From a virus, in the IMG/VR virus record IMGVR_UViG_3300027881_000029, positions 1-42,553 of that record: DNA of 42,553 nucleotides; one strand, 5' to 3'. Position numbers and translations under genes: made by a program. Below the pieces are notes generated by a model, which saw nothing but the letters and a program-made list of their open reading frames with translations, ran no database searches and had not been told where the DNA came from. Below are positions 1-22,280 of this stretch, one piece after another (position 1 is the stretch's first letter; each line of letters begins with the position of its first letter).

Positions 1-471
1 GCCATTCTCACGGTACATGGCAACGCACTCGGGCGTGTCTTCCAGGACCAAGAAGGGCTTGTAGGTCTCTCGCGCCTTCATCAGCATGTCCTGTTTCACC
101 AGGTGGGCCTTCCGATAGTCACCCGTTTGGCGCATCCAGCACGAGTCCCAGTTCAACTTCTTGGGGCCGACGTTGTGACTCAACCAATGCTCCGTAGTTT
201 CACGGTATTCCTCACTGCGCCCGGTGAACATGAGCACATTGGCCTTGAGCGACATGACCTTCAGCATCTCAATGACCTCCGGGATGGGAGGGTCATCGGG
301 TATACCCGCATAGAAGGCATCCCAGTCGCGGGAGCCGTCCTTGATATGCTTCAGCCGGTGTACGGGGTCTGCCACCACCCCGTCTATGTCGCAGAGTATG
401 ACCCGCGGCTTGGCCTTGGCGAGCTTGCTCCCGTACAAGCCCTCCGTGATCTTCTCATCCGCCGTCTTCAT
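1..471 (-). CDS. HAD-superfamily phosphatase, 3' part cut by window edge
   Basis: The 157 codons present form an open frame running off the left edge. Residues 24-35 read VILCDIDGVVAD, the DxD nucleophile motif (D28, D30) of HAD hydrolases. A second motif, MFTGRSEEYR, and a later VLEDTPECVAMY acidic motif follow in the right order. This layout resembles the 3'-phosphatase domain of T4-type polynucleotide kinase, which removes terminal phosphates from nucleic acid ends; other HAD nucleotidases are equally possible because the C-terminus is missing. The start ATG overlaps the stop of the preceding gene (ATGA), so translation is probably coupled. Recognition as HAD is firm; the substrate is inferred. 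Confidence 0.8.
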   Translation of the reverse strand, partial: MKTADEKITEGLYGSKLAKAKPRVILCDIDGVVADPVHRLKHIKDGSRDWDAFYAGIPDDPPIPEVIEMLKVMSLKANVLMFTGRSEEYRETTEHWLSHNVGPKKLNWDSCWMRQTGDYRKAHLVKQDMLMKARETYKPFLVLEDTPECVAMYRENG

Positions 472-698
472 CGGTTTTTCGCCTTCTGCTTGGCATAGTA
501 TTTTGTCTTCATCTGATCGACAAAAAGGTCGACGTCGCAACTGACCTGGGCGTATGTCTTGCCGAAGATGTCCGCCACCATGTCGTATGGTGCGCCATAG
601 CCGGGCTGATTGGACCCGCCCATGTACTCGCTGAACTCTTCCCTCGCCATCTTGAGGATCGCCTCACGATAGGTGATCTTTTCTACTGGCTTGGGCAT
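468..698 (-). CDS. small protein of unknown function, 76 aa
   Basis: This is a charged soluble protein beginning MPKPVEKITYREAILKMARE, with lysine-rich ends and no recognised domain. Its ATG has a GGAG ribosome site seven bases upstream, and it overlaps the HAD gene by four bases (ATGA). It lies between two phosphohydrolases in the leftward accessory operon, which is the only clue to its role. Confidence 0.7.
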   Translation of the reverse strand: MPKPVEKITYREAILKMAREEFSEYMGGSNQPGYGAPYDMVADIFGKTYAQVSCDVDLFVDQMKTKYYAKQKAKNR

Positions 699-702
699 TC
701 TG

Positions 703-1191
703 CTACTCCTGTCCCTTGATTTCTTCGATTGTCATTGGCCGGTGGAGCGAATCCCATCCGACGTCGTACCGATTCTTCGGCTGGCGTCCACGAGGTATCG
801 TTCCGTGGCAGTGACCATGGAGGTGAATCGTCTTTTGGCTGTCCATATTGTTCCACTGTTCGATTGGGAAATGAAACATTACGTTCCGTCCAATCCGCAG
901 ATAGGTATGGACTTCGGCCCAGTGCTCGCTCTCCCGCACTTTTTTCGGGTCGTGGTTGCCAGATACGAGGATCTTGCACCCGTTCAACCGGCGCAGTATC
1001 TCCAAGGCGTTGTCGAGATCTCCCAGCGCGAAATCCCCGAGGTGGTACACGGTATCCGTGGGAGAGACTGTTTCGTTCCATATCCGCTCCATCTCCAAGT
1101 TCATTTCCCGCACATTGGCGTACGGGCGGTTGCAGTACTCGATGATATTGTGATGCCCGAAGTGGGTGTCACTTGTGTAGTATGTTGCCAT
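703..1191 (-). CDS. calcineurin-like metallophosphoesterase
   Basis: The 162-aa product begins MATYYTSDTHFGHHN, the first metal-binding motif (D8, H10). It continues with HLGDFALGD, then VSGNHD and LHGHCHG. These are the four conserved blocks of the phage and bacterial metallophosphoesterase family, which uses two metal ions to hydrolyse phosphoesters. The ATG at 1191 was chosen over an upstream start because it lies just after the stop of the Fic gene and begins directly at the conserved strand. The substrate (nucleotide, RNA end or protein phosphate) cannot be told. Neighbours are a HAD phosphatase and a Fic protein, suggesting a group acting on nucleotidyl or phosphoryl groups. Confidence 0.9.
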   Translation of the reverse strand: MATYYTSDTHFGHHNIIEYCNRPYANVREMNLEMERIWNETVSPTDTVYHLGDFALGDLDNALEILRRLNGCKILVSGNHDPKKVRESEHWAEVHTYLRIGRNVMFHFPIEQWNNMDSQKTIHLHGHCHGTIPRGRQPKNRYDVGWDSLHRPMTIEEIKGQE

Positions 1192-1193
1192 CG

Positions 1194-1676
1194 TCAGCCC
1201 TGGTTGGCAATGAGGGATTGATAATACCACTCATGGAGGAAGCCTCGACGTAGATCGTACCCGGTCCGCACCATCTGCCATGCCCATACGGCGCGACCCG
1301 TTCGGCCATTTCCGTCCATGAACGGGTGGAGCTTCTCGAAGGCTTGGTGCACCGAGTACGCGGGGTCATGTTGGGTTGCCCGCCAGCATATGTTTTCGAG
1401 GTTGGCTTTGATAAACGGGCTGCCCAAGGGGGCGACATAACCTCCCACCCGTACGTTCTGACCAGGGTTGAGCCGGAGGGGCTTGCCTGGTTGGATGACC
1501 TTTTGGAAGTCAATGACATCTTCAATCTCCAGTTTGTGTTTGTCGAAACGCCCGGTGTTGTTCAGCAGCGTATCATATGCGTCAATCTCTACACGCAAGG
1601 CGGCATCACCGAGGTCTATGCTCTCAATTCGGTTAGACTCTTTGATAAATCCCTCCAGCATCGCCATCTTGTACAT
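1194..1676 (-). CDS. Fic/DOC-family protein
   Basis: The 160-aa product carries the Fic signature LHPFMDGNGRTGR at residues 116-128, with catalytic H117 and the anion-binding GNGR loop. Fic enzymes usually transfer AMP from ATP to a hydroxyl side chain of a target protein; some transfer other phosphate-linked groups. Near the N-terminus, SNRIES (residues 14-19) resembles the inhibitory (S/T)xxxE(G/N) helix of class II Fic proteins, with the last position degenerate. This would make the enzyme self-restrained. The ATG shares its A with the stop of the upstream gene (TAATG). An early-phage role in modifying a host protein is inference. Confidence 0.9.
   Translation of the reverse strand: MYKMAMLEGFIKESNRIESIDLGDAALRVEIDAYDTLLNNTGRFDKHKLEIEDVIDFQKVIQPGKPLRLNPGQNVRVGGYVAPLGSPFIKANLENICWRATQHDPAYSVHQAFEKLHPFMDGNGRTGRAVWAWQMVRTGYDLRRGFLHEWYYQSLIANQG
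1646..1656 (+). repeat. CAAATCCCTCC repeat, variant copy (TAAATCCCTCC)
   Basis: This copy is inside the Fic gene, differing only at the first base; it encodes part of LEGF on the minus strand. Confidence 0.85.
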
Positions 1677-2107
1677 TATAGCAGCTTCCAATCTTCGTCC
1701 GGGTCGTAGAACTTCTCCGCCGGGAACTGTTCGGCAAGGGTTCGTCGCGGCTGTTTCAGGTCAACAACCTTGCCATCGATGTCGTAGTTATCCTCGGGAT
1801 GGATACGCCTAAAGATGCGCCCCACCTTGGGGTCCCTGAAAACCGCCTCGGCATTCGCCCGCCGCTTTGCCTTAGCAGCCTGCTTCTTGGCCTGTTTGCC
1901 TGCCTCGGCGAGAATAAACTTGAAACCATCCACGTAACCACGGCTCCAAATCTCCTTGTCAGTGCCGACGAGGGCGCAACTATACCGCTTCTTCGCTGCT
2001 TGACGTTTCTCCTCGCTCACGTCGATCAGCAATTCTTGGGAATCCTCTTGCCCCGCCTCGTAACCGCCCCAATACGCGTCGTTGTTCCACATATCCATCA
2101 AAGTCAT
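1676..2107 (-). CDS. protein of unknown function, 143 aa
   Basis: No family is recognised. The N-terminus is rich in aromatic and acidic residues (MWNNDAYWGGYEAGQED). A central basic stretch (GKQAKKQAAKAKRRANAEA) may bind nucleic acid, and the C-terminus is acidic. The start overlaps the previous stop (ATGA) and its stop overlaps the Fic start, so it is a regular operon member. Coding is supported by overlap and codon pattern, not by homology. Confidence 0.75.
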   Translation of the reverse strand: MTLMDMWNNDAYWGGYEAGQEDSQELLIDVSEEKRQAAKKRYSCALVGTDKEIWSRGYVDGFKFILAEAGKQAKKQAAKAKRRANAEAVFRDPKVGRIFRRIHPEDNYDIDGKVVDLKQPRRTLAEQFPAEKFYDPDEDWKLL

Positions 2108-2502
2108 GCGCTCGCCCTCCTGTTGGCTCTGCTTTCCGCACCTCTAAGAAGTCTGCCAGTAAGGCCGCTTTCCGGGCGGTCGATTGTCGTAACTTGCGTA
2201 ATAGGAACTGATCCGGCTTTAACGCGGATACGGGGTTTGACACTATCACTGGAAGGTGCCGGGGTTCGTAGGGTTTTTCGGTCATTCGCATCTTCCCTCG
2301 GTTTAAAAGCCTTGTTCGAACGTGTGATGCATCTGATGTTCCGACACTCGACCATGTCTGCCGAGATGTCGATCGGACGTCCGCACTGGATACAATCGAA
2401 GATCGGGTCCTCCGCACCATCCGTCAGGAGATAAGTCTCCATCATAAGTTCGTGCAGGCTCTGTTCATCGTGTTTCTTGTCGCCTATCATTGTATCATCC
2501 AC
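2104..2502 (-). CDS. putative zinc-ribbon protein, 132 aa
   Basis: Residues about 37-58 contain CIQCG followed by CRNIRC, two Cys pairs spaced like a small zinc ribbon. The rest is basic and probably disordered, which would suit DNA or RNA contact. The start at 2502 lies three bases after a GGGAG; an alternative ATG at 2490 has a longer spacing from the same site. It sits immediately downstream of the nuclease gene and is probably co-transcribed with it. Confidence 0.65.
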   Translation of the reverse strand: MDDTMIGDKKHDEQSLHELMMETYLLTDGAEDPIFDCIQCGRPIDISADMVECRNIRCITRSNKAFKPREDANDRKTLRTPAPSSDSVKPRIRVKAGSVPITQVTTIDRPESGLTGRLLRGAESRANRRASA

Positions 2503-2505
2503 TCC

Positions 2506-3393
2506 CTATTTCGGAGGCTCGTACGGGACCATGTGGAATTTATCGTCCAGGTATCGATGCCGATTGTTTTCAGACGCGAGGCATATGTCGCGTAGTTCAC
2601 ATCCTCCGTACATCTGGCAGGAGCCACGGTTGCGCGGCCAGTGCTCTGTTCGATGGCATATATCAACATCGTTGACGAGTCGTACCATGTCACGTTCGAA
2701 CTCGTTGATATGATCCTCTTTGACATCAATGCGCTGCCTAGCCCAACGAGTACCGTTGACCATCGTTTGGCAAGCCTCGACCAGTACTCCTTTGACAGGT
2801 AGCCCCAAAGCCCGACACGCCCAACGGTAGGCGGTGAACTGCGTGGATGGATTCCATGAGTTCCAATATGAATAATTAAGTACTCGTCCCGTTGTCTTGA
2901 TGTCAACAATGAACAGGTCACCCTGCCATTCCGCCAGCCGATCGATCCGCCCCGACAACCGCCATGGAGTGCCCGGTATAGCCAGCTCGAACCGTAGTTC
3001 CACCGCGGGTGCATCATTGAACTTTACTGTCTTGAAAGGGTCGTCCGCACCCCATGTTTCGCCATACCACGACACAGCGCGGCAAAGCGTGTTCGGGGTC
3101 CGGCTATTGTCTGGGCTGCCGGAGAGGCTGGGAGCCAGTTCCAGTGCTTTAGACACAGCAGCGAATTGAGCCTCCACGTGGCTCTCCGTAAGTAGTTTCG
3201 TCTCATGATATGCCTCGATTCCCGAGTGAACCTGCGTTCCAAAGTGGGCGTTCCACAGCGTGCCACGCGGCCGCCAACGCTCCAAGTCTTTGATCTTGTA
3301 GTAGTACTTGCACTTATCCGCGTCGCCAAGGGAAGAGGGGTCAAATACCTCCTGCTTCCCATCGACAAACTTCTCGAACAGTATCTCACCCAT
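2506..3393 (-). CDS. PD-(D/E)XK nuclease with Cys cluster (RecB/Cas4-like)
   Basis: The 295-aa product has the RecB-type nuclease core. H56 lies in FGTQVHSGIE, D151 in GRIDRL, D164 and K166 in FIVDIKTT, and Q185 in STQFTAYRW. One Cys near the N-terminus (C28) and three near the C-terminus (C259, C265, C271, in CQMYGGCELRDIC) match the split four-Cys iron-sulfur cluster of Cas4, AddB and related phage exonucleases. Such proteins usually act as exonucleases in recombination, end processing or host-DNA degradation. Its start overlaps the end of a small membrane-protein gene by eight bases. Family assignment is firm; which DNA it attacks is unknown. Confidence 0.85.
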   Translation of the reverse strand: MGEILFEKFVDGKQEVFDPSSLGDADKCKYYYKIKDLERWRPRGTLWNAHFGTQVHSGIEAYHETKLLTESHVEAQFAAVSKALELAPSLSGSPDNSRTPNTLCRAVSWYGETWGADDPFKTVKFNDAPAVELRFELAIPGTPWRLSGRIDRLAEWQGDLFIVDIKTTGRVLNYSYWNSWNPSTQFTAYRWACRALGLPVKGVLVEACQTMVNGTRWARQRIDVKEDHINEFERDMVRLVNDVDICHRTEHWPRNRGSCQMYGGCELRDICLASENNRHRYLDDKFHMVPYEPPK

Positions 3394-3526
3394 GGACGCA
3401 TATCTGCGCTAGGGTGTAGCCCACCAGCAACGCCACCGCAGCGGCGCAGCCAATTATATAGAACCAGGGTTTGGCGAGCCACCACCAATCGTCCAAATCC
3501 CTCCAGAACGTCTTCCATTTAGTCAT
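3386..3526 (-). CDS. small single-span membrane protein, 46 aa
   Basis: The frame reads MTKWKTFWRDLDDWWWLAKP, then a hydrophobic span of about 22 residues (WFYIIGCAAAVALLVGYTLA) and a short tail. One transmembrane helix with a Trp-rich charged N-terminus is expected. The ATG overlaps the stop of the preceding small gene, and the end overlaps the nuclease start. A copy of the CAAATCCCTCC repeat lies inside it, encoding part of WRDL. Confidence 0.7.
   Translation of the reverse strand: MTKWKTFWRDLDDWWWLAKPWFYIIGCAAAVALLVGYTLAQICVHG
3494..3504 (+). repeat. CAAATCCCTCC repeat
   Basis: Exact copy inside the 46-aa membrane-protein gene. Confidence 0.9.
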
Positions 3527-3659
3527 AGCCGTGGTCCCTTAAGATATCCTCCCAGCGGGCCAGGAGGGCCTCCATCTCGTCCTCATTCTCGTGGTAGAAG
3601 TCGAAGGCACCCTTGTGAGTGGTATCGAGCAGCTCCATTAAGCATTCTTCCGAGATCAT
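3519..3659 (-). CDS. small acidic protein, 46 aa
   Basis: The frame MISEECLMELLDTTHKGAFD...ILRDHGYD is strongly acidic and predicted helical. It begins in an ATGA overlap with the previous gene and ends eight bases into the next one. Nothing in it is recognised; the gene call rests on the unbroken chain of overlapping starts and stops. It is one of three consecutive genes of exactly 46 codons plus stop. Confidence 0.65.
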   Translation of the reverse strand: MISEECLMELLDTTHKGAFDFYHENEDEMEALLARWEDILRDHGYD

Positions 3660-3796
3660 TCTACGTTCTCCACTTCCTGAATTGCACTAATGATGTTGGC
3701 TCGTAGCTCCTGCGACCATCGTGCGTGGCTGTCAAGATCATCGATTGCCTCGTACAGCATGTCGACGACTCGGTTCTTAACGTCTTCGTTGCTCAT
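3656..3796 (-). CDS. small protein of unknown function, 46 aa
   Basis: The product begins MSNEDVKNRVVDMLYEAIDD and is mainly helical and acidic. The start overlaps the upstream stop (ATGA at 3793-3796) and the stop overlaps the next start. No family is recognised. It belongs to the unit driven by the promoter at 4,034-4,062. Confidence 0.65.
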   Translation of the reverse strand: MSNEDVKNRVVDMLYEAIDDLDSHARWSQELRANIISAIQEVENVE

Positions 3797-4014
3797 CCGA
3801 GCACCTTTGCGTTCAGCAATTCGGCGTCGGTCATCTCCGGCTCTGCGGCTTTCTTACTTGCCATCTTGCGGGCGTCTCCCTTGGCGTCGAGCTTCTCAAA
3901 CTTGGCCCGGAGGGCACGGTAGTGGACCACAAGGGCGCGGCGTTCGTCGTCGGTGATTGTCTCAGCGTCTTTCTCCATCAGAGCGTCTACATCGAATTCA
4001 AGTGGATCGTTCAT
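3793..4014 (-). CDS. small charged protein, first gene after the leftward promoter, 73 aa
   Basis: The product starts MNDPLEFDVDALMEKDAETI and is a highly charged helical protein with a Lys/Ala-rich middle; no family is recognised. The ATG at 4014 was chosen because AAGGAG lies six bases upstream. An in-frame ATG at 4029 falls almost on the expected transcription start and could give a leaderless version five residues longer. It is the first gene of the short leftward operon 4,014 to the window start. Confidence 0.7.
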   Translation of the reverse strand: MNDPLEFDVDALMEKDAETITDDERRALVVHYRALRAKFEKLDAKGDARKMASKKAAEPEMTDAELLNAKVLG

Positions 4015-4033
4015 TTCATTCTCCTTCATTCTC

Positions 4034-4062
4034 ATTATACGCCCATTTTCCGGCGAATGCAA
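4034..4062 (-). promoter_or_regulatory. sigma70-type promoter, leftward (TTGCAT-17-TATAAT)
   Basis: On the minus strand TTGCAT lies at 4062-4057 and a perfect TATAAT at 4039-4034, 17 bases apart. The transcript should start near 4027, directly before the gene at 4014. Its sequence and upstream context match the rightward promoter at 17,486-17,515, both being the outer edge of the duplicated palindromic module. Confidence 0.85.
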
Positions 4063-4078
4063 GCATTATTTTCATTTT

Positions 4079-4250
4079 CTGGTCCTCTGTGATCTTCTGC
4101 GATCCTCTTATAAAATCGCATTTGGGGGTGGCGCGGGTGTATAGTTAGTAATTATATAATATGAGTTTTACTTCTTACGTATACTAACATCCTGCGGCAC
4201 CCCCAGAATCATTTCCTAAGATGTCCCCAGAAGACCTCAGAGGACCAGGA
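4079..4250. repeat. palindromic regulatory module, left copy
   Basis: Two imperfect inverted arms (about 4079-4145 and 4184-4250) flank an AT-rich core. The core, 4146-4183, is exactly repeated in inverted orientation at 17359-17396 (38 of 38 bases). Arms carry AGAGG/AGAAG blocks spaced 10 bp, then a G/C-rich block (GGGGGTGGCGCGGG and its mirror). The right arm lies inside the 3' end of the gene at 4184-4465. With the promoter at 4034-4062 the whole stretch aligns with the right copy over roughly 240 bp. Confidence 0.85.
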
Positions 4251-4465
4251 TTCGAAATCCGATCGATGACCCTGCGCAAAATCATATTGGCCGTTGTCTG
4301 CCGCTTTTGGGCAGCAACCAGGTCGTGGTGGCGATCTTGCACCTTTTGATTTGCGCATATGCGGTCAGCTTTGGCCCTCTGCAACCGACCGCCCATATCA
4401 GATACTCCCAACTTGGCCATCTTCAGGTTGCTGATGGCTGCGGCCAGTTCCTTTTCATCATTCAT
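4184..4465 (-). CDS. small coiled-coil protein, 93 aa, last gene of the amidoligase operon
   Basis: The product begins MNDEKELAAAISNLKMAKLG and has a long Ala/Gln/Arg-rich heptad-like helix, likely a coiled coil. The start at 4465 overlaps the ATP-grasp stop (ATGA). The last 25 or so residues (NPGPLRSSGDILGNDSGGAA) are encoded by the right arm of the palindromic module, so this tail was probably acquired when the module inserted, or the arm serves as a terminator overlapping the gene. No function is recognised. Confidence 0.6.
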   Translation of the reverse strand: MNDEKELAAAISNLKMAKLGVSDMGGRLQRAKADRICANQKVQDRHHDLVAAQKRQTTANMILRRVIDRISNPGPLRSSGDILGNDSGGAAGC

Positions 4466-5205
4466 CGTACCATCTCCTTGAGCATTGTGACATAGTTGTC
4501 GAGAGTCGTCCCTTCGAGGCCGGGGGCGGTGTTGACTTCGATAGCATAGCACCGATCCTCTTTACCGTTCCAAATGATGTCGACCGCACCGAAGTCGAGG
4601 GAGAGAGCTGACATGGTATCAACGGCACATTGTTCCAACCCCTCCGGCGGGTCGAGGTCGTTGCGTTGGAAGATAAAGCCCGCGGCATGATTTCGTACCC
4701 TCCAGTCTTCAATTTCGGCATCTGCCCGACGTACCTTACGCTGCACATCGAAGCTCTTTCCGCCCCCCACATGGACGCGGTACTCCTCCTTCTTCTTGAT
4801 GTACAACACGTAGAGCGGAGCGTTCACCACTTGATCCGCCACCTCCGCAATCACAATTCCAGCACCGGAATGCCCAGCGAGCACTTTCCGGCACACTACA
4901 ATCTTCCCGTCGTTCGTCCACTCCTTCGCCACCTCCTTGTCCGTGGTAAACGATGGCGTCAGATCGGTGTCCACCAGCTTCTGGAAGAAGGTTCGCTTGT
5001 TGGATGCCTCGATAATGCACTCGGGGCGGTTGAACACTTGACATTTGTCGATCTCCGCGGTTGTTTCGATGGCTCCCCAGTTGATGACCTTCTTCCGGGG
5101 GCGGCCAATAAAGGTCTTGCTGTCGTGTTTGATCCGCCGAGCAGGGATGGCAAAGCGTAACGCCTTGGCACCCTTGCTTGCGAACTTATAGCTGTAGATT
5201 AGCAT
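4462..5205 (-). CDS. ATP-grasp ligase of the amidoligase cluster
   Basis: The 247-aa product shows ATP-grasp features. YVLYIKKKEEYRVHV lies in the middle and DFGAVDIIWN plus CYAIEVNTAPGLEG near the C-terminus, the last supplying the acidic and Asn metal ligands. ATP-grasp enzymes activate a carboxylate as an acyl phosphate and join it to an amine. Iyer and colleagues described phage gene neighbourhoods in which such enzymes accompany COOH-NH2 ligases and glutamine amidotransferases, and this operon fits that description. Its start shares a base with the upstream stop (TAATG). The substrate is unknown. Confidence 0.85.
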   Translation of the reverse strand: MLIYSYKFASKGAKALRFAIPARRIKHDSKTFIGRPRKKVINWGAIETTAEIDKCQVFNRPECIIEASNKRTFFQKLVDTDLTPSFTTDKEVAKEWTNDGKIVVCRKVLAGHSGAGIVIAEVADQVVNAPLYVLYIKKKEEYRVHVGGGKSFDVQRKVRRADAEIEDWRVRNHAAGFIFQRNDLDPPEGLEQCAVDTMSALSLDFGAVDIIWNGKEDRCYAIEVNTAPGLEGTTLDNYVTMLKEMVR

Positions 5206-6182
5206 TATTCCTCGCCACGTGCGAAGGGGTTAGGTTCCTGCATGCGCTGGGCACGGTGCTGTTGGCCTGCGATGACCTGTCGCAGCGCGGCCTCACGCTG
5301 TTCTCTATAACCATTACCGCGCTTGGGTGGACGCTCGCGGACACGGGGGTCGTCCAATACCTTCTCCATCTTACGCATGTAGTTATCGTGGCTGTGCTCG
5401 TCGAAGGCATACACAGCAGGCTGGATGCGACGAATACACTGTACCACCATTTGATGCATGTCCCGACACTCGACGAGTTCCTCGTATGGACCGAGGGCAT
5501 CAGTGATGAATTGGCCTGGGCCGATCGACACCGCTTCGACGATCTGCTGGGGTTTCTCGTACTGGAGGGATTTGTCCTTGAGGCGCAGCAGGATGTCCAC
5601 CCAGGTCTTGATGACGTTGAGATCCTCCGGTGTGCGCATGCCGCGGAACTCCATGCTACCATACTTCTCCAGCGCACCCAGGTTGATCGAGGCATAGCGG
5701 AACTGGTCGCCCGACATCCAGTGTACGGTATGCTCCTTGATGCACCTGGCGAAAGTAGGAATGAAGTGGGATGCGTCCCCGGTCCGCAAGCAGAACAGGT
5801 TACCCTCTCGGTCTTCACCACACCAGCGCATGAGCACGTCCTCGAACGCCAGGTAGAGCACGGCGAAGTTGAACGTCTGTCGCAGCGTGAGTTCCTGGCA
5901 GTTGACGTGGATATGGACGCCACAGCGTTCGCTCGGTTCCACCAGATACAAATCAGAAGCATGACGTCGCATAAGCAGGTCTATGACCTCCTTCACTTCG
6001 TCACGTGGCACCGGGTCTCGGAGCACGTACTCGGCACTGTTGCCGCGAAGGGAACCATCCCCCGTGACTGTCCAGTATTTGTCGTCATTCATGTCGAGAC
6101 GCGGCCCTTCAACCTCGACCTCGATGCCCACTTCGCCCGTTTGTTCCCTGACGCCGCGAAGGATTTTAAGCATCTTTATCAT
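5205..6182 (-). CDS. amidoligase (COOH-NH2 ligase, Amidoligase_2-like)
   Basis: The 325-aa product has the signature of the glutamine-synthetase-fold amidoligases. It shows VGIEVEVEGP near the N-terminus, TGDGSLRGNSAEYVL, CGVHIHVNCQ around residue 110, and YASINLGALEKYGSMEFRG. The acidic strands and the HIHVN block bind metal and ATP in this fold. The enzyme should form an amide or peptide bond between a carboxylate and an amine at the cost of ATP. The start overlaps the neighbour's stop (ATGA). A repeat copy lies at 5564, encoding KSLQ. Family is confident; substrate is unknown. Confidence 0.85.
   Translation of the reverse strand: MIKMLKILRGVREQTGEVGIEVEVEGPRLDMNDDKYWTVTGDGSLRGNSAEYVLRDPVPRDEVKEVIDLLMRRHASDLYLVEPSERCGVHIHVNCQELTLRQTFNFAVLYLAFEDVLMRWCGEDREGNLFCLRTGDASHFIPTFARCIKEHTVHWMSGDQFRYASINLGALEKYGSMEFRGMRTPEDLNVIKTWVDILLRLKDKSLQYEKPQQIVEAVSIGPGQFITDALGPYEELVECRDMHQMVVQCIRRIQPAVYAFDEHSHDNYMRKMEKVLDDPRVRERPPKRGNGYREQREAALRQVIAGQQHRAQRMQEPNPFARGEE
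5564..5574 (-). repeat. CAAATCCCTCC repeat
   Basis: Exact copy on the minus strand inside the Amidoligase_2-like gene (KSLQ codons). Confidence 0.9.
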
Positions 6183-6754
6183 TGCACTGTCTCCAGTAGT
6201 TCTTGTAGATAGAAGTGTTTGTCGAACAGCTCGTACTTGTCGTCCAGGCCCTTGCGACCCACCTTGCCAATGTGGCGGTGGATCAAATAGCCGTCTAAGC
6301 GAACGGCGAAGTCGCGGCTGACTGCCACCGTGCTCTTGTTGTTGAACAGCTCGTGCACACTCTCGAACTTCGGAAAGTCGTTGTACACTGTCTTGCCGAA
6401 TGCTCGGGAGTCGAGAAGCGCCCCGATCTCGGGCGTCCGCTTACCGTCAAACGCCGTGACCTTACAGTTACCGCGGCAGATGCCAATCTTCCACTGGCGG
6501 TTGGGGTATCGATCCACCAGGACTATGGATCGCTGCATATTGACGAAGCCCGTGGGGACCGGCACATAGTCGATACTCTTATGTCCCCAGTGGATAACGT
6601 GATGCTTTGCCACCCCAACTTGGTGGTATGCCAGACGAAAGCGTCCTGCGTCCACTTGTTCAACGTGGTCGATAAACACCGGGTCGCCCCCAATTCGAAT
6701 GACCGAGTGTTGGAGACGCATGTTGGCATTGCGCTCATCGTATAGATCAATCAT
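6179..6754 (-). CDS. unknown protein within the amidoligase cluster, 191 aa
   Basis: No family is recognised. The sequence alternates beta-prone stretches (RLQHSVIRIGGDPVFIDHVE, RSIVLVDRYPNRQWKIGIC) with helices and looks globular and soluble. It is locked between the two amidoligases by ATGA overlaps at both ends, so it is probably a stoichiometric partner or a third enzyme of the pathway. It may be an adaptor that presents the substrate, but this is only inference from position. Confidence 0.75.
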   Translation of the reverse strand: MIDLYDERNANMRLQHSVIRIGGDPVFIDHVEQVDAGRFRLAYHQVGVAKHHVIHWGHKSIDYVPVPTGFVNMQRSIVLVDRYPNRQWKIGICRGNCKVTAFDGKRTPEIGALLDSRAFGKTVYNDFPKFESVHELFNNKSTVAVSRDFAVRLDGYLIHRHIGKVGRKGLDDKYELFDKHFYLQELLETVQ

Positions 6755-7767
6755 TCGATTTCACCAATTACCACATCTTCCTGAGCATAGTCGTGCAACC
6801 TCCAGTTGTAATCCCTATCCTGTGGCGCACCCAGCTCGGCGACCTCGGCATCCTCCATACGAACGTCCTCGTCGTTACGTTCCAACTCAAAAGCCCCTGG
6901 AGCAACATTGTCAAGCGCACGTGCAAAGTCAATCAATCCATTCCGGGGGCGGGGCTGACGCATGGGATGCGCATGCTGCCACACTTCAATGCCGTATGGA
7001 GCGACTTGCTCCAACAAACCTGCACTGTTGGCAAAGCTGCCTTCGTTGATCGCCTCCTCTGGGCATTCGAACTTGTTGGCAAGTACGTGGCCCTGTTCCA
7101 GGTAGTACATGGCACTGGTAACAGCACGAAACACCCGACGGGACAGTTCGTTGGACTGGAGCCAGAAGTTGGACAGGACGCGGTACTCGACGCCGTAAGG
7201 CTTGGGCCGGAACGCACCCGCCTTGCCATAGAGAGCACGCCGCTCGGCGCTTTCGAGCTTGATCGCCGGGAGCGCTAGGAAATAATCGAGCTGCTTGACA
7301 ATGGCAGCACAGTCCTGCATGTGTTCTTCGGTGTACGGATCGTCGACATCTGCGAAGCCGATGTGGACATGCCCAGCAGCGGTACGCATGTTCGGGTTCT
7401 CAAGATCCGGTACCATGTTTTGCTGCATGGTATATGCGTTGTAGTCGGGGTCACACCCAAGGACAAGGGCTTCGGGAGGTTGTGCATTGATGTGTTCCTC
7501 CGTGAAGTACGCACATGGCTCGATGGCAAAGTGCAGGTTATCCGGCACCATCTTACGCATCTCAGACATGACGACATTGAGGTTGTTGCACCAGTCGTTC
7601 TCGTTCTCCGCCGGTTCGATGTTGAACTCAAGCGCCAGGCCATCGACCTGCACGGCTCCGTTCGCCACCGCATGCGGCTCTTCCTTCGTGCCAGGTATCA
7701 CACCGTGAGCGCTGTGGTATTGCTCTCCGTTGAGGAGAAACAGCTCTGGGTCTGCTCCTACTTTCAT
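6751..7767 (-). CDS. COOH-NH2 ligase-type amidoligase (second family)
   Basis: The 338-aa product begins MKVGADPELFLL, then GVIPGTKEEP, VQVDGLALEFNIEPA, GCDPDYNAY, AAGHVHIGF and GVEYRVLSNFW. This series of motifs is typical of phage COOH-NH2 ligase proteins of the glutamine-synthetase fold. It differs clearly from the neighbouring Amidoligase_2-like enzyme, so the phage has two distinct ligases. The start at 7767 was chosen for the ATGA overlap with the class II amidotransferase gene and because it begins right at the conserved GADPE block. The acidic C-terminal tail (about 60 residues) is probably disordered. Confidence 0.88.
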   Translation of the reverse strand: MKVGADPELFLLNGEQYHSAHGVIPGTKEEPHAVANGAVQVDGLALEFNIEPAENENDWCNNLNVVMSEMRKMVPDNLHFAIEPCAYFTEEHINAQPPEALVLGCDPDYNAYTMQQNMVPDLENPNMRTAAGHVHIGFADVDDPYTEEHMQDCAAIVKQLDYFLALPAIKLESAERRALYGKAGAFRPKPYGVEYRVLSNFWLQSNELSRRVFRAVTSAMYYLEQGHVLANKFECPEEAINEGSFANSAGLLEQVAPYGIEVWQHAHPMRQPRPRNGLIDFARALDNVAPGAFELERNDEDVRMEDAEVAELGAPQDRDYNWRLHDYAQEDVVIGEIE

Positions 7768-8993
7768 TTCTGATCTCCAAACATCATGTTTCGGGCTGCT
7801 GTCGCGCACTCACCACACATGGCAGTATCGGCCGAGAGAAACTCGATCTCGGCGTCAGTGAATTGTAGGTTTGTCCCGCAATCCAAACATTCTTTGTAGT
7901 GCCTCTGCCAGCTCACCGCGGTTAGTTCCAGATTCGTCCAGCAACGCCGCTTCCCCGAATCCACCTGCCCCTGAGCTTTGTGGACTTTCAGCGCCACCTT
8001 CTTGCGGAGGCGTTCGCGCTGGATAGGGTCTTTTGTAGCGTGCATGAACGGAATAACCTTGGCTACCTTTGCCGCCGGGCGTTCTTCCGTTTTAGGCGCT
8101 TTGCTGTCTGTTTCGCCTTTCGTTTCTGTTTTTTGCTGAGTGCTCGGGACTTGTTGGTTGGCCCGTGCGGCTGCTGCCGTGGCTCTTGCTCGCTCTTGGG
8201 CTTGGACTTGCGCTGTCCCCCGCCCGTAGCTGACGTAGGACGTGTGAACGACGTGCGAAAATGGGGTGAGCTGCTTTGACACGTGGCTCACCTCCTTCTT
8301 TACGTTGTCCCACTTGAACTTGAAGTGGAAGTTGGGCGACGGCGAACGAATCTCGTCCAGCTTGATGTTGTGGCGTAGCTCGATAACTTCTAGCATCCAC
8401 GACTCGGAGGCATAGAACACGGCGTCCCTGTTCTTGGTGTAAGCAAAGTGCAGCGTACGCTCCTTGTTGCGCAGCATGTTCATCACACCCTCATCCAGAT
8501 TCCACCAGATGAGTGCCGCGGCTCCGTCCAGCTTCGCCCAGGTCTTCTCAGGCCCGTGCTGGTTGATGGAGTTCAGGATGGTTTCGCTGTCTGTGTCCCA
8601 GTTACCCTCAATACCGAGATCGGTTATCCGCTTGAGCGCGTAGTCGTGCACGGTCCCGTTGTGCATACCGATGCAACGCCCGGCGATGAAGGGATGAGCA
8701 TTCGCGGTGGTCACTTCCCCCTTGGTAGCCCATCGGTTGTGTCCAAGGAAAGCCTTCCGCTTCAGGTTCTCCAGCTCCTGATAGCCCTTGGAATAGATGA
8801 GGTCCTGGGGCAGACACGCATCCTTGTACGTCATACATGTGTGTTTCTTTGCCCCTTTGATTAGTGGTTCCTCCGCAATGAAGGCAACCCCGGTGGAATG
8901 CGGTCCACGAACCACATCGAAGATGAGGAGGTCACGAAACCCCTTCTTGTAATCGGCCTTGTCGTCGCCGATCAAACCAACCAACCCACACAT
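7764..8993 (-). CDS. class II glutamine amidotransferase fused to a zinc-ribbon tail
   Basis: The 409-aa product starts MCGLVGLIG; removal of Met exposes the catalytic Cys of class II amidotransferases. GHNRWATKG and NAHPF...MHNGTVHDY complete the glutaminase site within the first 130 residues. After about residue 245 comes a low-complexity Ala/Gln/Lys/Thr linker, then a C-terminal four-Cys ribbon (CLDCGTNL ... CGECA). No synthetase domain is attached. The domain could supply ammonia from glutamine, or hydrolyse gamma-glutamyl-type amides made by the ligases. The ribbon may hold DNA, RNA or a partner. Overlaps with both neighbours (ATGA, TAATG). Confidence 0.88.
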   Translation of the reverse strand: MCGLVGLIGDDKADYKKGFRDLLIFDVVRGPHSTGVAFIAEEPLIKGAKKHTCMTYKDACLPQDLIYSKGYQELENLKRKAFLGHNRWATKGEVTTANAHPFIAGRCIGMHNGTVHDYALKRITDLGIEGNWDTDSETILNSINQHGPEKTWAKLDGAAALIWWNLDEGVMNMLRNKERTLHFAYTKNRDAVFYASESWMLEVIELRHNIKLDEIRSPSPNFHFKFKWDNVKKEVSHVSKQLTPFSHVVHTSYVSYGRGTAQVQAQERARATAAAARANQQVPSTQQKTETKGETDSKAPKTEERPAAKVAKVIPFMHATKDPIQRERLRKKVALKVHKAQGQVDSGKRRCWTNLELTAVSWQRHYKECLDCGTNLQFTDAEIEFLSADTAMCGECATAARNMMFGDQK

Positions 8994-9640
8994 TAGACTG
9001 ACACCCCGCAGTTTTCCTTGACATAGGCGAAGTAGCGATTGGCCAGATCGTCATGTCCTGGGAACTCAGGGTGGGGCTGGAAGCAGAGGGCGTTGAACTC
9101 CTCGTAGTAGCAGATCTCGACGTCCCGCCCCCTGCCGAAGACACGCTGCTCCTTCAGGTCCTTGGGGTTGATCGAGATCTTCTCCGTCGACTCAGATGCG
9201 ACACCGATGACCTCGGCATCCCGCGTTGGGATGATCATCTGGTGATGTGTTGAGGTGACATTGAACACCTCGCCCGTATTCTCATCGCGTGTCTCATGCA
9301 CGCCCGGAATACCGTGATTGTTGACGTCTTGGTACATCCGGCCTCCGCACATGACGTTGAGGAACTGGCCGCCGCGGCATATGCCAGCAACTGGGACACC
9401 GTTACGTCGGGCCGACAGAAAGATCTGCTGCTCGGCGAGATCCCGTATTGGATTGCAGTGGGTCGATCTATGCTTCGGCTCGCCGTAATACGTGGGGTCA
9501 ACGTCGCTTCCTCCGGTGAATTGGACGAGATCAGCCTCACGTATGTTGGTAACGATGCGCCAGCCTGCGCTCTTGAACATTTCGGTGTAGCCATGTGCGT
9601 AGTCCACGATGAGCACCGAGGGTGGTGTTTTACTTGCCAT
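8993..9640 (-). CDS. class I glutamine amidotransferase / gamma-glutamyl hydrolase-like protein
   Basis: The 215-aa product contains FTGGSDVDPTYYGE, the nucleophile elbow AGICRGGQFLNV and the His/Glu pair in FQPHPEF. This is the Cys-His-Glu triad of class I amidotransferases of the peptidase C26 branch, which includes PuuD and gamma-glutamyl hydrolases. Such enzymes cut gamma-glutamyl amide bonds. In this cluster it could release or trim the product of the ligases. The start at 9640 shares a base with the upstream stop (TAATG); a longer in-frame start at 9661 would overlap that gene more. Confidence 0.88.
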   Translation of the reverse strand: MASKTPPSVLIVDYAHGYTEMFKSAGWRIVTNIREADLVQFTGGSDVDPTYYGEPKHRSTHCNPIRDLAEQQIFLSARRNGVPVAGICRGGQFLNVMCGGRMYQDVNNHGIPGVHETRDENTGEVFNVTSTHHQMIIPTRDAEVIGVASESTEKISINPKDLKEQRVFGRGRDVEICYYEEFNALCFQPHPEFPGHDDLANRYFAYVKENCGVSV

Positions 9641-10572
9641 TAGACGTACTCCTTTTCCCATTTCTTGACTTGAGCTATTAGCTGGTCGCCAGATACTGTT
9701 TTGTAGTCATGCCCACCGTAACGACCGTCGATGTGAACGACCTTTTGTTTTACGGGACGCTCAAATTTGACTTCCTCGCCCTCCCCTGATGGATGGTCGT
9801 TGAAGAACATCGCCACGCCGTCATACTCACGGTCTTCGTGTATGGGTTCGAAGTCCCGCGTCGTTACGCTATTGTGCGTGGGCATCTCATGTGCGACAAA
9901 GTTCTGCACGCCTTCGACGCTCGTCTCACCACCCCAGCCGTTGAAGTCGAACGGCTTGTGAGCACCGCCCCCTTCAGAGTTAATGATCCAATGGTCTTTG
10001 TATTCGTCGCCATCCAGCGTTTTGATGAAATGTGTCGCGATGAGTGCAAAGTCCTTGTTGATGCCTCCCTTGGCCAACAAACCCCACGCAGCCACCATGC
10101 CGCGGTATTCTAACTGGAGGCGCTGCGACATTCCGGCCCCTATGATGTAAGGTGCTGGATATTCGACGTCGTACTCAACGCCGAACTTGTGGGCTTCCTT
10201 GGCGTCTTTGGTGACCATACAGGCCGCGTAGCCGCTTTCATTCGCAAGCCATGTATAATACTCTCGGCTTTCTTTCGGCGTTGGACTGTACCACTTGCTT
10301 TTGTCGTAGTCATAGTCGCCGCGCTCACGCTTGGTATCTGCGGCCCACTCGGCCTCGGCTCTTGCCGTACGGACTGAACGATAGCCAATGTAGTCATGAA
10401 AACCAGTGATTTTACTGGCGGGGAGATCACAATAGGATACTGCCGCGTAACAGGGTACCCCGATCTTATTTGAGAAGCTACCATCCTCGTGAGTAAAGCC
10501 CCAGTTGAAGATTTGGGACCGCCTTCTGACGCGCTTTCGGATGTGAGCGAGGGCTTCATTATGCTCACTCAT
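9640..10572 (-). CDS. unknown protein upstream of the amidoligase cluster, 310 aa
   Basis: No known family is recognised. It begins MSEHNEALAHIRKRVRRRSQ, a basic helix, followed by mixed alpha/beta sequence rich in aromatic and acidic residues (GDYDYDKSKWYS, YYTWLANESGYAACM). There is no signal peptide or membrane span. Stop and start overlap both neighbours, so it belongs to the same transcript and may be the target, a carrier or a further enzyme of the amidoligase system. Confidence 0.75.
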   Translation of the reverse strand: MSEHNEALAHIRKRVRRRSQIFNWGFTHEDGSFSNKIGVPCYAAVSYCDLPASKITGFHDYIGYRSVRTARAEAEWAADTKRERGDYDYDKSKWYSPTPKESREYYTWLANESGYAACMVTKDAKEAHKFGVEYDVEYPAPYIIGAGMSQRLQLEYRGMVAAWGLLAKGGINKDFALIATHFIKTLDGDEYKDHWIINSEGGGAHKPFDFNGWGGETSVEGVQNFVAHEMPTHNSVTTRDFEPIHEDREYDGVAMFFNDHPSGEGEEVKFERPVKQKVVHIDGRYGGHDYKTVSGDQLIAQVKKWEKEYV

Positions 10573-18967: not shown

Positions 18968-19119
18968 TGACCATGAACATACCCATTCCTGGGATTCCCA
19001 AAGACGAGTTCATCGAACAATACGGCGAGGCTGCTTTCAAGGCTGTCGACCATCGCTATATCATATCCTGGAACCACGAGGCGTACATTCTAGATGGTTG
19101 GTCAGAACCTGCAGAGTAA
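18967..19119 (+). CDS. small protein between terminase subunits, 50 aa
   Basis: The frame MTMNIPIPGIPKDEFIEQYG...DGWSEPAE starts in a TAATG overlap with terS and overlaps the large subunit start by 26 bases. It is acidic and contains DHRYIISWNHEAYILDGW, beta-like. Function unknown; it may be a packaging accessory. Confidence 0.65.
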   Translation: MTMNIPIPGIPKDEFIEQYGEAAFKAVDHRYIISWNHEAYILDGWSEPAE

Positions 19120-20653
19120 GCTGGAGCTAATTCAGGCACTAGAGCTGCGGACGCAGAAAGCTGCCCAGGACAACTTCCTTACCTTTATCCAAACAATGAA
19201 TCCTCTCTTCGTGGTTTCCCGACACCATGAAGTGATTGCCGAGAAGCTCGAGGCGGTAGAACGCGGCGATACTCGGCGGCTTATCGTCACGATGCCGCCT
19301 CGCTCCGGCAAGTCGCTCATGGTTTCCGAGTACTTCCCTACTTGGTACCTTGGGCGACACCCCACACATCAAGCACTAGCCGTATCATACACAGGCGACT
19401 TCGCCAAACAATGGGGGAAAAAAGTCCGTGACTACATCGAAACCGACGAATACCGAACCATCTTTCCCAACACTCAAATCAGCCGTAACACACGTGCTGC
19501 AGCTACCTGGACCACAACGGCGGGCGGCATTTATAACAGTGCGGGTATTACCTCAGGAATCGCCGGTAAAGGCGCTCATATCGGTCTCATAGATGACCCA
19601 CTCAATGAACAGGATGCCTACTCCAAAGCCGCCCGCGAGCACGTCATCCGCTGGTGGCCCGCTGGTTTTCTCTCCCGTCTCATGCCCAACGGCCGGATTG
19701 TCGTTCTTTCCACACGGTGGAACGAGGAAGATCTCATTGGCTATGTCCTTCAGGAAGCCAAGGAAAACCCTGAGCAGGCTCAGTGGGAAATTCTTAGCAT
19801 CCCCGCCATACTTGACAAGCCCACTGCAACGCTACTCGGTCCTCCTTGTGTCGAAGGCGAAACCTTTTGGCCTGTCAACGAGGCAATGGTTGACAAGGCT
19901 CAGCTTGCTGGATGGCCTACTCAGGAACTCCTTGAGAAGAAGGCGTCCCTTCCTGACTACCAGTGGCAGGCACTATATATGCAGCGCCCGAGCGCAGTGG
20001 AGGGTGCTATCATCAAGAGAGATGACTGGCAGCTCTGGCAGGGCCTGGAACCCCCGGAATGTGAATATACGCTCTTATCGTGTGACACCGCGTTCGAGAC
20101 GACTAACATCTCTGACTTCTCCGCACTCTGCCTATGGGGCGTCTTTGCCGATCCTAACAAAGAAAAGATGGACCTGGAACCGGGAGACTATCACTTCATA
20201 TGTCTGTCATCTGAAAAGGGGCGTTGGGAGTATCCAGAACTCCGGCAGAAAGTCCGGGACACCTACGCCGAGCACAGGCCCGACGTCATACTCATCGAGA
20301 AGAAAGCGTCTGGACAGTCTCTTATCCAAGAACTCCAGCGCTCTCTACTCCCGGTGGCTGCATATCAACCAGACAAGGACAAGGTCGCGCGGGCGCACGC
20401 CTGTTCACCAGCATTCCATCAGGGACGCGTATGGATACCCGATCCTCTTAAGTACACATGGGCTGAGCAGCTTATGGATGAGTGCGCCCGATTCAGCGCA
20501 ACAGGAAGCGCCAAGGACGATTTGGTGGACGCTACCACCCAAGCCGTACTTTGGGTTCGTGACAATTTCCTCCTCAATCTGTCCATAGACAAATGGAACG
20601 ACGACTGGAACGACTGGGAAGAGCCAGCTTTCGCACGGCGGCGTGGCTACTAA
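19094..20653 (+). CDS. terL: terminase large subunit
   Basis: The 519-aa product has both packaging-motor and nuclease domains. Walker A is MPPRSGKS (K73), Walker B is HIGLIDDP (D167, D168), and a coupling motif VVLSTRWN follows. The RNase H-fold nuclease shows SCDTAFE (D331), VILIEKKASG (E402) and SAKDDLVDA (D475-D479). It pumps DNA into the prohead using ATP and cuts the concatemer. Full length and all active residues are present. The ATG at 19094 overlaps the preceding small gene. Confidence 0.95.
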   Translation: MVGQNLQSKLELIQALELRTQKAAQDNFLTFIQTMNPLFVVSRHHEVIAEKLEAVERGDTRRLIVTMPPRSGKSLMVSEYFPTWYLGRHPTHQALAVSYTGDFAKQWGKKVRDYIETDEYRTIFPNTQISRNTRAAATWTTTAGGIYNSAGITSGIAGKGAHIGLIDDPLNEQDAYSKAAREHVIRWWPAGFLSRLMPNGRIVVLSTRWNEEDLIGYVLQEAKENPEQAQWEILSIPAILDKPTATLLGPPCVEGETFWPVNEAMVDKAQLAGWPTQELLEKKASLPDYQWQALYMQRPSAVEGAIIKRDDWQLWQGLEPPECEYTLLSCDTAFETTNISDFSALCLWGVFADPNKEKMDLEPGDYHFICLSSEKGRWEYPELRQKVRDTYAEHRPDVILIEKKASGQSLIQELQRSLLPVAAYQPDKDKVARAHACSPAFHQGRVWIPDPLKYTWAEQLMDECARFSATGSAKDDLVDATTQAVLWVRDNFLLNLSIDKWNDDWNDWEEPAFARRRGY

Positions 20654-20658
20654 TTTGC

Positions 20659-20688
20659 TTGACAGCAACCCTAGGACTGTGGTATAAT
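20659..20688 (+). promoter_or_regulatory. sigma70 promoter (TTGACA-18-TATAAT), leaderless for lysozyme
   Basis: Perfect TTGACA at 20659-20664 and TATAAT at 20683-20688 with TGTGG before the -10. The ATG at 20695 is exactly at the expected transcription start. Confidence 0.9.
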
Positions 20689-20694
20689 AGTAAC

Positions 20695-21399
20695 ATGGCG
20701 GGACTTTCAGATTACGTATCGGAACACGGCGAGTTCATGGTGGACCTCGTGCCCGAACATGTACCTGCCACCAAGAATGCGAAGAAGCCCGTAGCTCACG
20801 ACGAACCCACATACAAGCGACCGGAGGCCGAGTCCGTAAGGGCCACACCTTCGCCAGCTACGGTGGAGGAGGACGTGAACTACGACTTCGTTCGCCAGGC
20901 CGAGAACAGCATCAAGAAGGGCTACGTCTCTGCCAGCGGCAAGTGGTATCCCTACGAAGGGGGCCTCGGTTATGGCGAATACGACATAGGCTATAGCCAC
21001 AAAATAGTAGATGGCAAGGTAAAGATCGGCGGGAAGCAGTATGACGCGGCACAAGGATTCACCCAGTCCCAGATCAACCAACTCTTCCGAGAAGACATGG
21101 CTGGGGCGGACCGCGAAGCTCGCAAGTATAAGCGCCTCAATCGAAACCAACAGCAGGCGCTCGCTTCCATCTTTTACCAGTCCGGCACAAACATGGCATC
21201 CTATGGACCAAAAGCCCTCGCGGCCCTCAAAGCGTATGAGAAAAAGGGCATGCAGGACGACCTCGACACGTTTATCTACGAAGCCTTCGACCCCAACCAA
21301 GGAATCGCGGTTAAGGTTAAGAAGGGCGACAAACCCCTCAAATCCCTCCAGAAGCGGGTAGCCAAGCGCCGCGCACGTTTTATGGGACTGCCCAAATGA
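20695..21399 (+). CDS. phage lysozyme (GH24-like muramidase), probably virion-associated
   Basis: The 234-aa product has an N-terminal disordered stretch of about 60 residues, then a lysozyme domain. E70 in VRQAENSIKKG is the candidate catalytic acid. YDIGYSHKI replaces the usual TIGYGH, and FREDMAGADREARKY and NQQQALASIFYQSG match the rest of the GH24 family. It should cleave peptidoglycan glycan strands. Its place between terminase and portal, and the long N-terminal extension with PTYKRP also present in the next protein, suggest it is carried in the particle for DNA entry and not only used for lysis. A repeat copy at 21339 encodes KSLQ. Confidence 0.8.
   Translation: MAGLSDYVSEHGEFMVDLVPEHVPATKNAKKPVAHDEPTYKRPEAESVRATPSPATVEEDVNYDFVRQAENSIKKGYVSASGKWYPYEGGLGYGEYDIGYSHKIVDGKVKIGGKQYDAAQGFTQSQINQLFREDMAGADREARKYKRLNRNQQQALASIFYQSGTNMASYGPKALAALKAYEKKGMQDDLDTFIYEAFDPNQGIAVKVKKGDKPLKSLQKRVAKRRARFMGLPK
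21339..21349 (+). repeat. CAAATCCCTCC repeat
   Basis: Exact copy near the 3' end of the lysozyme gene (KSLQ codons). Confidence 0.9.
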
Positions 21400-22280
21400 G
21401 CTGGTGGGACGACATAGTCGACTCAATGATTATAACCACGCCGACCCAGGAGACATCCTCGGTCACGTCGTCGCATAGCGCCACGCCAGCTCCACCACCG
21501 CCAGCTCCGCCACCGCCACCTAAGCAGGTGGAGTTGATGCCGACATACAAGCGGCCGAACGTCTTTCAGGAGACCCTATCGCCGCTCGAGTTCGCCAACC
21601 CGACGTCGGAGGCACCGCCAGACGAGGTAGAGGCACCAGCGCCGCGGAATAAGCCTCCGGTGCCAGAAGCGCGTAACATGACGCCCGAGAAGGTGGTGGA
21701 GGAATGGCACGCAGAGGGCAGATCACAGGGCTTCATCGATCTGAACTTGCTGCGGATGGACTACGGACGAGATAAAAAGGGCAACCCTGATCGCGCTGTG
21801 GCAATCACCGAGGAAGACCTTACGCCTGGCATGACGTCTTACATCAAACATCTGGCCAAGGCTACACGGCCGAGCGAGGATGCGACTGAATGGGAGATTA
21901 CCAGGGACTATACGATCCCCAATCAGCCAAAGCAAGACACGCCTGAGAACGAATTTTGGAATACCTACATGCGGGCATTCGGTTCGATGCGCATTAAGAT
22001 AGATAAAGACGGCAATCTTATTGCCACGGACATCTACGACTTCAATGAAAATCGAGTTGTCACGATGAAAGATCGTGAGATGTACCGCAAGAATCCAGAC
22101 AAGCTTGATGCAAAGCTTGAGAAAATAGTAGACAAGATCATGGCTGACAAGAAAATTCCATGGTTTGAACGTGTCAAGAAAGCCGCGTACGAGCGCATCA
22201 AGTTTGAACGCTACGTCAACGGAGCACAAGAAGGTGATGAAACAGGCAGCCGCTCACGCCTGAATCTAGGAAAGATATAA
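21396..22280 (+). CDS. probable virion protein with Pro-rich N-terminus, 294 aa
   Basis: After MSWWDDIVDSM comes a Pro-rich segment (PAPPPPAPPPPP), then MPTYKRPNVFQE, a motif shared with the lysozyme N-terminus. The C-terminal 190 residues are globular and charged (FGSMRIKIDKDGNLIATDIY). It overlaps both the lysozyme stop and the portal start. It is likely an internal or ejection protein, by position only. Confidence 0.7.
   Translation: MSWWDDIVDSMIITTPTQETSSVTSSHSATPAPPPPAPPPPPKQVELMPTYKRPNVFQETLSPLEFANPTSEAPPDEVEAPAPRNKPPVPEARNMTPEKVVEEWHAEGRSQGFIDLNLLRMDYGRDKKGNPDRAVAITEEDLTPGMTSYIKHLAKATRPSEDATEWEITRDYTIPNQPKQDTPENEFWNTYMRAFGSMRIKIDKDGNLIATDIYDFNENRVVTMKDREMYRKNPDKLDAKLEKIVDKIMADKKIPWFERVKKAAYERIKFERYVNGAQEGDETGSRSRLNLGKI

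Follow-up and report, generated by a model that had tools for sequence, protein, structure and literature searches.

An intact, divergent copy of the phage amidoligase ('peptidoglycan-modification') cassette in the viral record IMGVR_UViG_3300027881_000029

Linked phage genes for ATP-grasp ligases, glutamine-synthetase-like ligases and amidotransferases were predicted to make peptide modifications (Iyer 2009, Mol Biosyst 5:1636, as reported in PMC4431377 and PMC10580990). In RIO-1-like podoviruses a seven-gene 'peptidoglycan modification cassette' was described and hypothesised to prevent superinfection; RIO-1, phiEco32, 7-11, PA11, tf, MR299-2, LUZ24, PaP3 and CW02 are listed as carriers (PMC5498523, citing Hardies 2013). 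The same proposal is made in PMC11945000, also with reference to Hardies 2013, where weakening of the wall ahead of lysis is added as an alternative, and a peptidoglycan-type proposal is carried by PMC10580990 as well. No experiment on the cassette product was found in the literature, and what the cassette makes has been a matter of prediction since 2009. We analysed the IMG/VR viral record IMGVR_UViG_3300027881_000029, whose entire 42,553 bases are referred to as the window, and found it to carry an intact, divergent copy of this known phage amidoligase cassette. Its enzymology is well supported, whereas its target is not. The initial annotation of this DNA correctly credited Iyer and colleagues with predicting such systems; it missed the prior description of the same cassette in podoviruses (PMC5498523, PMC11945000).

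The cassette consists of seven minus-strand open reading frames (ORFs) running from 10572 to 4462, which are transcribed in the order G, F, E, D, C, B, A. All seven are present as initially annotated, and profile matches to Pfam (judged against the family cut-offs), PHROG and the PDB confirmed the enzyme classes given for A, B, D, E and F. Gene A matched phrog_2599 ('ribosomal protein S6 glutaminyl transferase', 2.9e-77) and its family profile matched RimK-type ligases of the PDB at 1e-9; compared with Pfam RimK alone it remained under the cut-off. Gene B was barely above the cut-off for Amidoligase_2 (PF12224; 22.2 vs 22 bits) and matched phrog_7469 (1.4e-62). For gene D a match to COOH-NH2_lig (PF14395, 38.2 vs 25 bits) and to phrog_3815 (2e-79) was obtained, and we take its fold to be glutamine-synthetase-like, as in the family. 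A sequence search of the PDB with B and D gave no meaningful match. With B in Amidoligase_2 and D in PF14395, both counted among the glutamine-synthetase-like ligases, the two are genuinely different COOH-NH2 ligases, as had been claimed. Gene E belongs to GATase_6 (65.9 vs 27 bits) and lacks a recognised synthetase domain; near its C-terminus it carries a zinc-ribbon-like motif (Cys369/372/393/396) that is invariant in a ten-sequence alignment. Gene F matched Peptidase_C26 (75 vs 20.5 bits) and resembles gamma-glutamyl hydrolase and PuuD-type enzymes.

Loss of active-site residues had been named as an outcome that would speak against a functional system. We examined this at the sequence level, judging conservation across about 107 non-redundant homologues, and found the residues of all five enzymes to be kept. 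Conserved positions are present in A (Lys157, Asp209, Glu223, Asn225), in B (Glu21, Glu23, His90, His92, Glu178, Arg180), in D (Asp6, Glu8, Asp42, Glu47, His133, His135, Arg176, Lys189, Glu194, Arg196) and in E, where the nucleophile Cys2 is conserved in 107 of 107 homologues and is accompanied by Arg87, Asn112, Gly113 and Asp135. The triad of F, Cys88, His190 and Glu192, is in place and reaches a conservation of 0.99-1.00 in 93 homologues (numbering from a start at 9640; from 9661 the residues would be Cys95, His197 and Glu199). Presumably these conserved residues of A, B, D, E and F are the catalytic ones, as in their families. Together with the family matches, the kept residues agree with the description of the locus as a complete amidoligase system that combines bond-forming and bond-cleaving enzymes.

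Scans of viral contigs yielded several hundred loci, 107 of which were left after dropping near-duplicates and poorly flanked loci. Genes A, B and D are present in all of these by selection; C and E were not used for selection and were found in 106 and 107 loci, respectively. Gene G was detected in 78 loci, an undercount where records are cut; in CW02, for example, it spans the start of the record. An undisturbed GFEDCBA order is seen in 59 of the 107 non-redundant loci, a degree of conservation far above chance.

Every one of the 107 loci encodes F (93 loci) or a gamma-glutamyl cyclotransferase (GGCT, 44 loci), and all 14 loci that lack F have GGCT. This suggests that removal of a gamma-glutamyl group is a required step of the pathway. 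GGCT itself is not a strict defining feature of the cassette, being absent from most loci: F occurs without it in 63. No GGCT was found in the window, which has F instead, while GGCT was detected and F was not in the examined stretches of LUZ24, RIO-1, PhiCHU, GAP52 and the phiEco32-like record L323. Mapped on the tree of A, the presence of F switches nine times on the best tree and three times on well-supported branches.

The two uncharacterised partners, C and G, belong to the system, as the initial annotation had stated: C by its presence in nearly all loci and G as a cassette-specific family. The sole family match of C is the unnamed phrog_11055 (7.6e-21). Its AlphaFold model is confident (predicted local distance difference test, pLDDT, 94; predicted template-modelling score, pTM, 0.88). 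A relationship of C to EF-P/eIF5A was considered and rejected, the best PDB matches having E-values of 0.08-0.5 and template-modelling scores of about 0.25. Gene G, with a model of pLDDT 79, matched weak unnamed families only, and the window protein fell into no Pfam family. Pfam gave only stray weak matches for 60 family members of C and as many of G, and sequence searches of the PDB with both gave no meaningful match. Among predicted viral proteins G had 14 significant matches; those with names come from the cassette phages CW02, GAP52 and RIO-1 and also from CVT22, which has D and F too, and Proteus phage 3H10_20. In 78 homologues of G, Cys41 and Arg151 are invariant and Glu155 and His205 are conserved at 0.97, a pattern which suggests that G may be a thiol enzyme. 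In LUZ24 (3588-5525) and GAP52 (4324-6152) the COOH-NH2 ligase gene is preceded by two uncharacterised genes that adjoin each other. The model of G was matched by two proteins of GAP52, K4F9T7 clearly and K4FBC0 weakly, possibly reflecting a duplication.

All six junctions are stop/start overlaps of 1 nt (TAATG at G/F, F/E and B/A) or 4 nt (ATGA at E/D, D/C and C/B). The coupling originally reported is real, but it was counted for six genes; with the corrected starts of D and F it includes all seven (Table 1). The start of D was moved from GTG 7809 to ATG 7767, because homologues start there and this ATG overlaps the stop of E as ATGA. For F, ATG 9640 is probably the start rather than 9661: homologues start nearby, and this ATG is preceded by AAGGAG and forms a TAATG overlap with the stop of G. 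The ORF downstream of A was rejected as a core gene since it has no homologue in other cassette loci, and it is probably not core. Promoter and terminator scans revealed nothing beyond the level of shuffled sequence.

Table 1 Genes of the cassette and the adjoining open reading frame in the window
Gene	Position	Strand	Length and start	Assignment
G	9640..10572	minus	310 aa	cassette-specific family, function uncharacterised
F	8993..9640	minus	215 aa from ATG 9640 (probable start)	class I glutamine amidotransferase / Peptidase C26
E	7764..8993	minus	409 aa	class II (N-terminal nucleophile, Ntn) glutamine amidotransferase
D	6751..7767	minus	338 aa from ATG 7767	phiEco32-type COOH-NH2 ligase (PF14395)
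C	6179..6754	minus	191 aa	uncharacterised
B	5205..6182	minus	325 aa	Amidoligase_2 (PF12224), second COOH-NH2 ligase
A	4462..5205	minus	247 aa	RimK-like ATP-grasp carboxylate-amine ligase
Eighth ORF	4184..4465	minus	93 aa	ATGA overlap with A

The cassette occurs in Zobellviridae (KZY1-k141_1938105, O4, CW02, T5S1, KpnP_VR7901, RIO-1), in Bruynoghevirus (PhiCHU, LUZ24) and in Grimontviridae (GAP52), and relatives of B were present in 221 phage records and relatives of D in 317. Among about 85,000 bacterial and archaeal genomes D gave 13 matches, all in entries titled metagenome-assembled genomes and several on contigs as large as phage genomes. Thus, the function appears to be largely restricted to phages, and a cellular origin of the cassette was rejected. 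The terminase of the window matched Pelagibacter phages HTVC027P/023P, DSL-LC04 and Roseobacter phages CRP-901/902, and so did the portal, which also matched Alcaligenes phage QDWS535, a further carrier of the cassette; the portal matches listed include no named Zobellviridae phage. The cassette was not found in the examined stretches of DSL-LC04, HTVC027P, CRP-902 and MinM2. Its association with unrelated virion modules indicates that it travels between virion lineages. The genes for the large terminase subunit and the portal (19094-24649) are of the Pelagibacter HTVC027P / Roseobacter CRP-902 lineage, which sets the window apart from most carriers of the cassette.

Taken as a whole, the best explanation is that the cassette alters a peptide precursor of the host cell wall in the cytoplasm, a tentative reading to which we give slightly less than an even chance. 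E would free ammonia from glutamine for its partner ligase, B or D, perhaps docking on it via the zinc-ribbon-like tail, and B, D and A would form one amide or peptide bond after another on a carboxylate substrate in the cytoplasm. F, replaced or accompanied by GGCT in other phages, would remove or recycle a gamma-glutamyl group, while C and G may assist in handling the substrate or in assembly, and G might do so as a thiol enzyme. Our best guess for the substrate is the cytoplasmic precursor of the wall peptide; the altered new wall of the infected cell might then hinder superinfection or prepare lysis, as earlier authors proposed. None of the seven proteins has a strongly hydrophobic segment, which fits action on a cytoplasmic precursor.

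Several points weigh against this explanation. We found no experiment in the literature that supports peptidoglycan as the target, and in the Pfam search none of the cassette proteins showed a Mur-type or peptidoglycan-binding domain. In Gram-negative cells the peptidoglycan is covered by the outer membrane, and it is hard to see how altering it would keep out superinfecting phages. Either B or D may be the ligase that receives ammonia from E, the integrity of the five active sites is a reading of sequence conservation, and comparison of the models with the PDB gave no significant fold match for C and none at E ≤ 0.001 for G. Moreover, the well-supported switches between F and GGCT number only three, too few for the sign test on the tree of A to reach significance. 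The cassette had also been called probably central to infection, which is a conjecture: lab-evolved FJK phages carry missense changes in amidoligase and amidotransferase genes (PMC11450229), so selection has at least reached these genes, or else they can absorb such changes.

The same enzymes could instead make a soluble, peptide-like small molecule on a gamma-glutamyl handle, which would be attached, extended or amidated upon, and finally removed by F or GGCT; the product could be a signal, an inhibitor or an anti-defence metabolite. Putrescine degradation, where gamma-glutamylation is followed by hydrolysis by PuuD, offers an analogy for such a route. The PuuD-like character of F, the retention of at least one gamma-glutamyl-cleaving enzyme in each well-covered locus, with GGCT always present where F is missing, the cytosolic appearance of all cassette proteins and the movement of a self-contained cassette between unrelated virion types agree with it. 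Nevertheless, we saw no transporter, oxidase or other tailoring enzyme with a consistent link to the cassette in annotated relatives and the F/GGCT pattern is phylogenetically weak, and we consider this possibility doubtful. A stronger version, in which a gamma-glutamyl-protected route yields a new amide- or peptide-type product, C and G are obligatory partners of new fold and G founds a new family of thiol enzymes, appears rather unlikely. Addition of amino acids to host proteins in the manner of RimK, for example to a ribosomal protein or RNA polymerase, would reprogram the host. RimK, the ribosomal S6 glutamate ligase, is indeed the nearest relative of A among solved structures, phage ATP-grasp R2K ligases are predicted to modify host proteins (PMC4431377) and, in the phiEco32-like phage SU10, the cassette is part of the early region (PMC4281155). 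For a simple protein tag, however, a set of three ligases plus a donor of ammonia and a hydrolase for gamma-glutamyl groups is excessive, and such a target seems quite unlikely to us.

The phage itself is a far less probable substrate. Hypermodification of its DNA with amino acids or amides, in the style of the carboxymethylcytosine-glycine system CmoX/CmoY, has a precedent, since phage DNA can be a substrate of ATP-dependent amide ligation; a glutamine-hydrolysing domain occurs in a related cluster of ligases (PMC12783734). Against this, the window has no match to PF00145 (C5-cytosine methyltransferase), although the record may be a fragment and CmoA was not searched, and the parts of LUZ24, RIO-1 and CW02 that were retrieved carry no annotated pathway for base modification. 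The DNA of phage tf is cut by RsaI, HpaI, EcoRV, SmaI and HaeIII (PMC3517423) and that of U17 by 11 of 16 enzymes (PMC11945000). Furthermore, 6-bp palindromes occur in the window at 0.81 of expectation, below all 5000 random sets of 64 non-palindromes, as expected for DNA exposed to restriction. DNA, one of the targets initially suggested, is therefore disfavoured, and we regard it as very improbable. Virion proteins are equally poor candidates. Particle preparations of SU10 were found to contain proteins of the cassette, but these particles were only concentrated with polyethylene glycol, and the authors grant that early proteins may have been carried over (PMC4281155). The travel of the cassette between virion lineages, seen in the listed portal matches, argues against such a target, and none common to its carriers is apparent, RIO-1 having a P22-like coat and QDWS535 a Mu gpT-like protein.

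Several other features of the window were observed. CTAG occurs over its whole length at 0.61 of expectation, as in restriction-exposed genomes. A minus-strand gene at 1194-1691 encodes a Fic/DOC-family protein (Pfam Fic, 36.3 vs 24 bits), possibly an AMPylator or toxin-like gene. A polynucleotide-kinase-like ORF (1-1230, minus strand) is cut by the left end of the record, which is therefore probably incomplete; it adjoins a gene for a calcineurin-like phosphoesterase, and the two may form a pair for nucleic-acid end repair. In several relatives the cassette is followed by genes for a DNA polymerase and a primase/helicase; none was noticed in positions 1-4462 of the window. On the plus strand, a 1775-aa ORF (33669-38996) gave weak matches to unnamed phage families only.

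Phage records with relatives of these genes number in the hundreds and include LUZ24-like phages of Pseudomonas, a type used in therapy studies. The comparison narrows the range of targets, DNA and virion proteins being less likely, assigns two uncharacterised proteins to the system and points to a specific chemical role for F and for GGCT. As far as it is reported in PMC5498523 and PMC11945000, the RIO-1/PSA-HP1 cassette (Hardies 2013) shares the order E-D-C-B-A and a G homologue upstream; RIO-1 has GGCT and no F, whereas the window has F and no GGCT was found there. The cassettes of the Zobellviridae O4, CW02 and KZY1-k141_1938105 comprise the same seven families in the same order, F and G included, at about 25-49% identity per enzyme gene; some contain extra small genes, and the window phage is of a different virion lineage. 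Bruynoghevirus (LUZ24, PhiCHU) and phiEco32-like phages (GAP52, L323) share a D-C-B-E-A core and have GGCT, but E lies between B and A, unlike in the window, and the searched stretches yielded no F. The CmoA/CmoX/CmoY system of DNA hypermodification likewise involves phage-encoded, ATP-dependent amide bond formation, yet its ligase is asparagine-synthetase-like and acts on carboxymethylcytosine, while the window has no C5-methyltransferase match (PMC12783734). The amidoligase systems of Iyer et al. (2009), in the form in which later papers report them, link the same enzyme classes and are a prediction only. Thus, this kind of cassette is already published, and the window copy adds no new kind.

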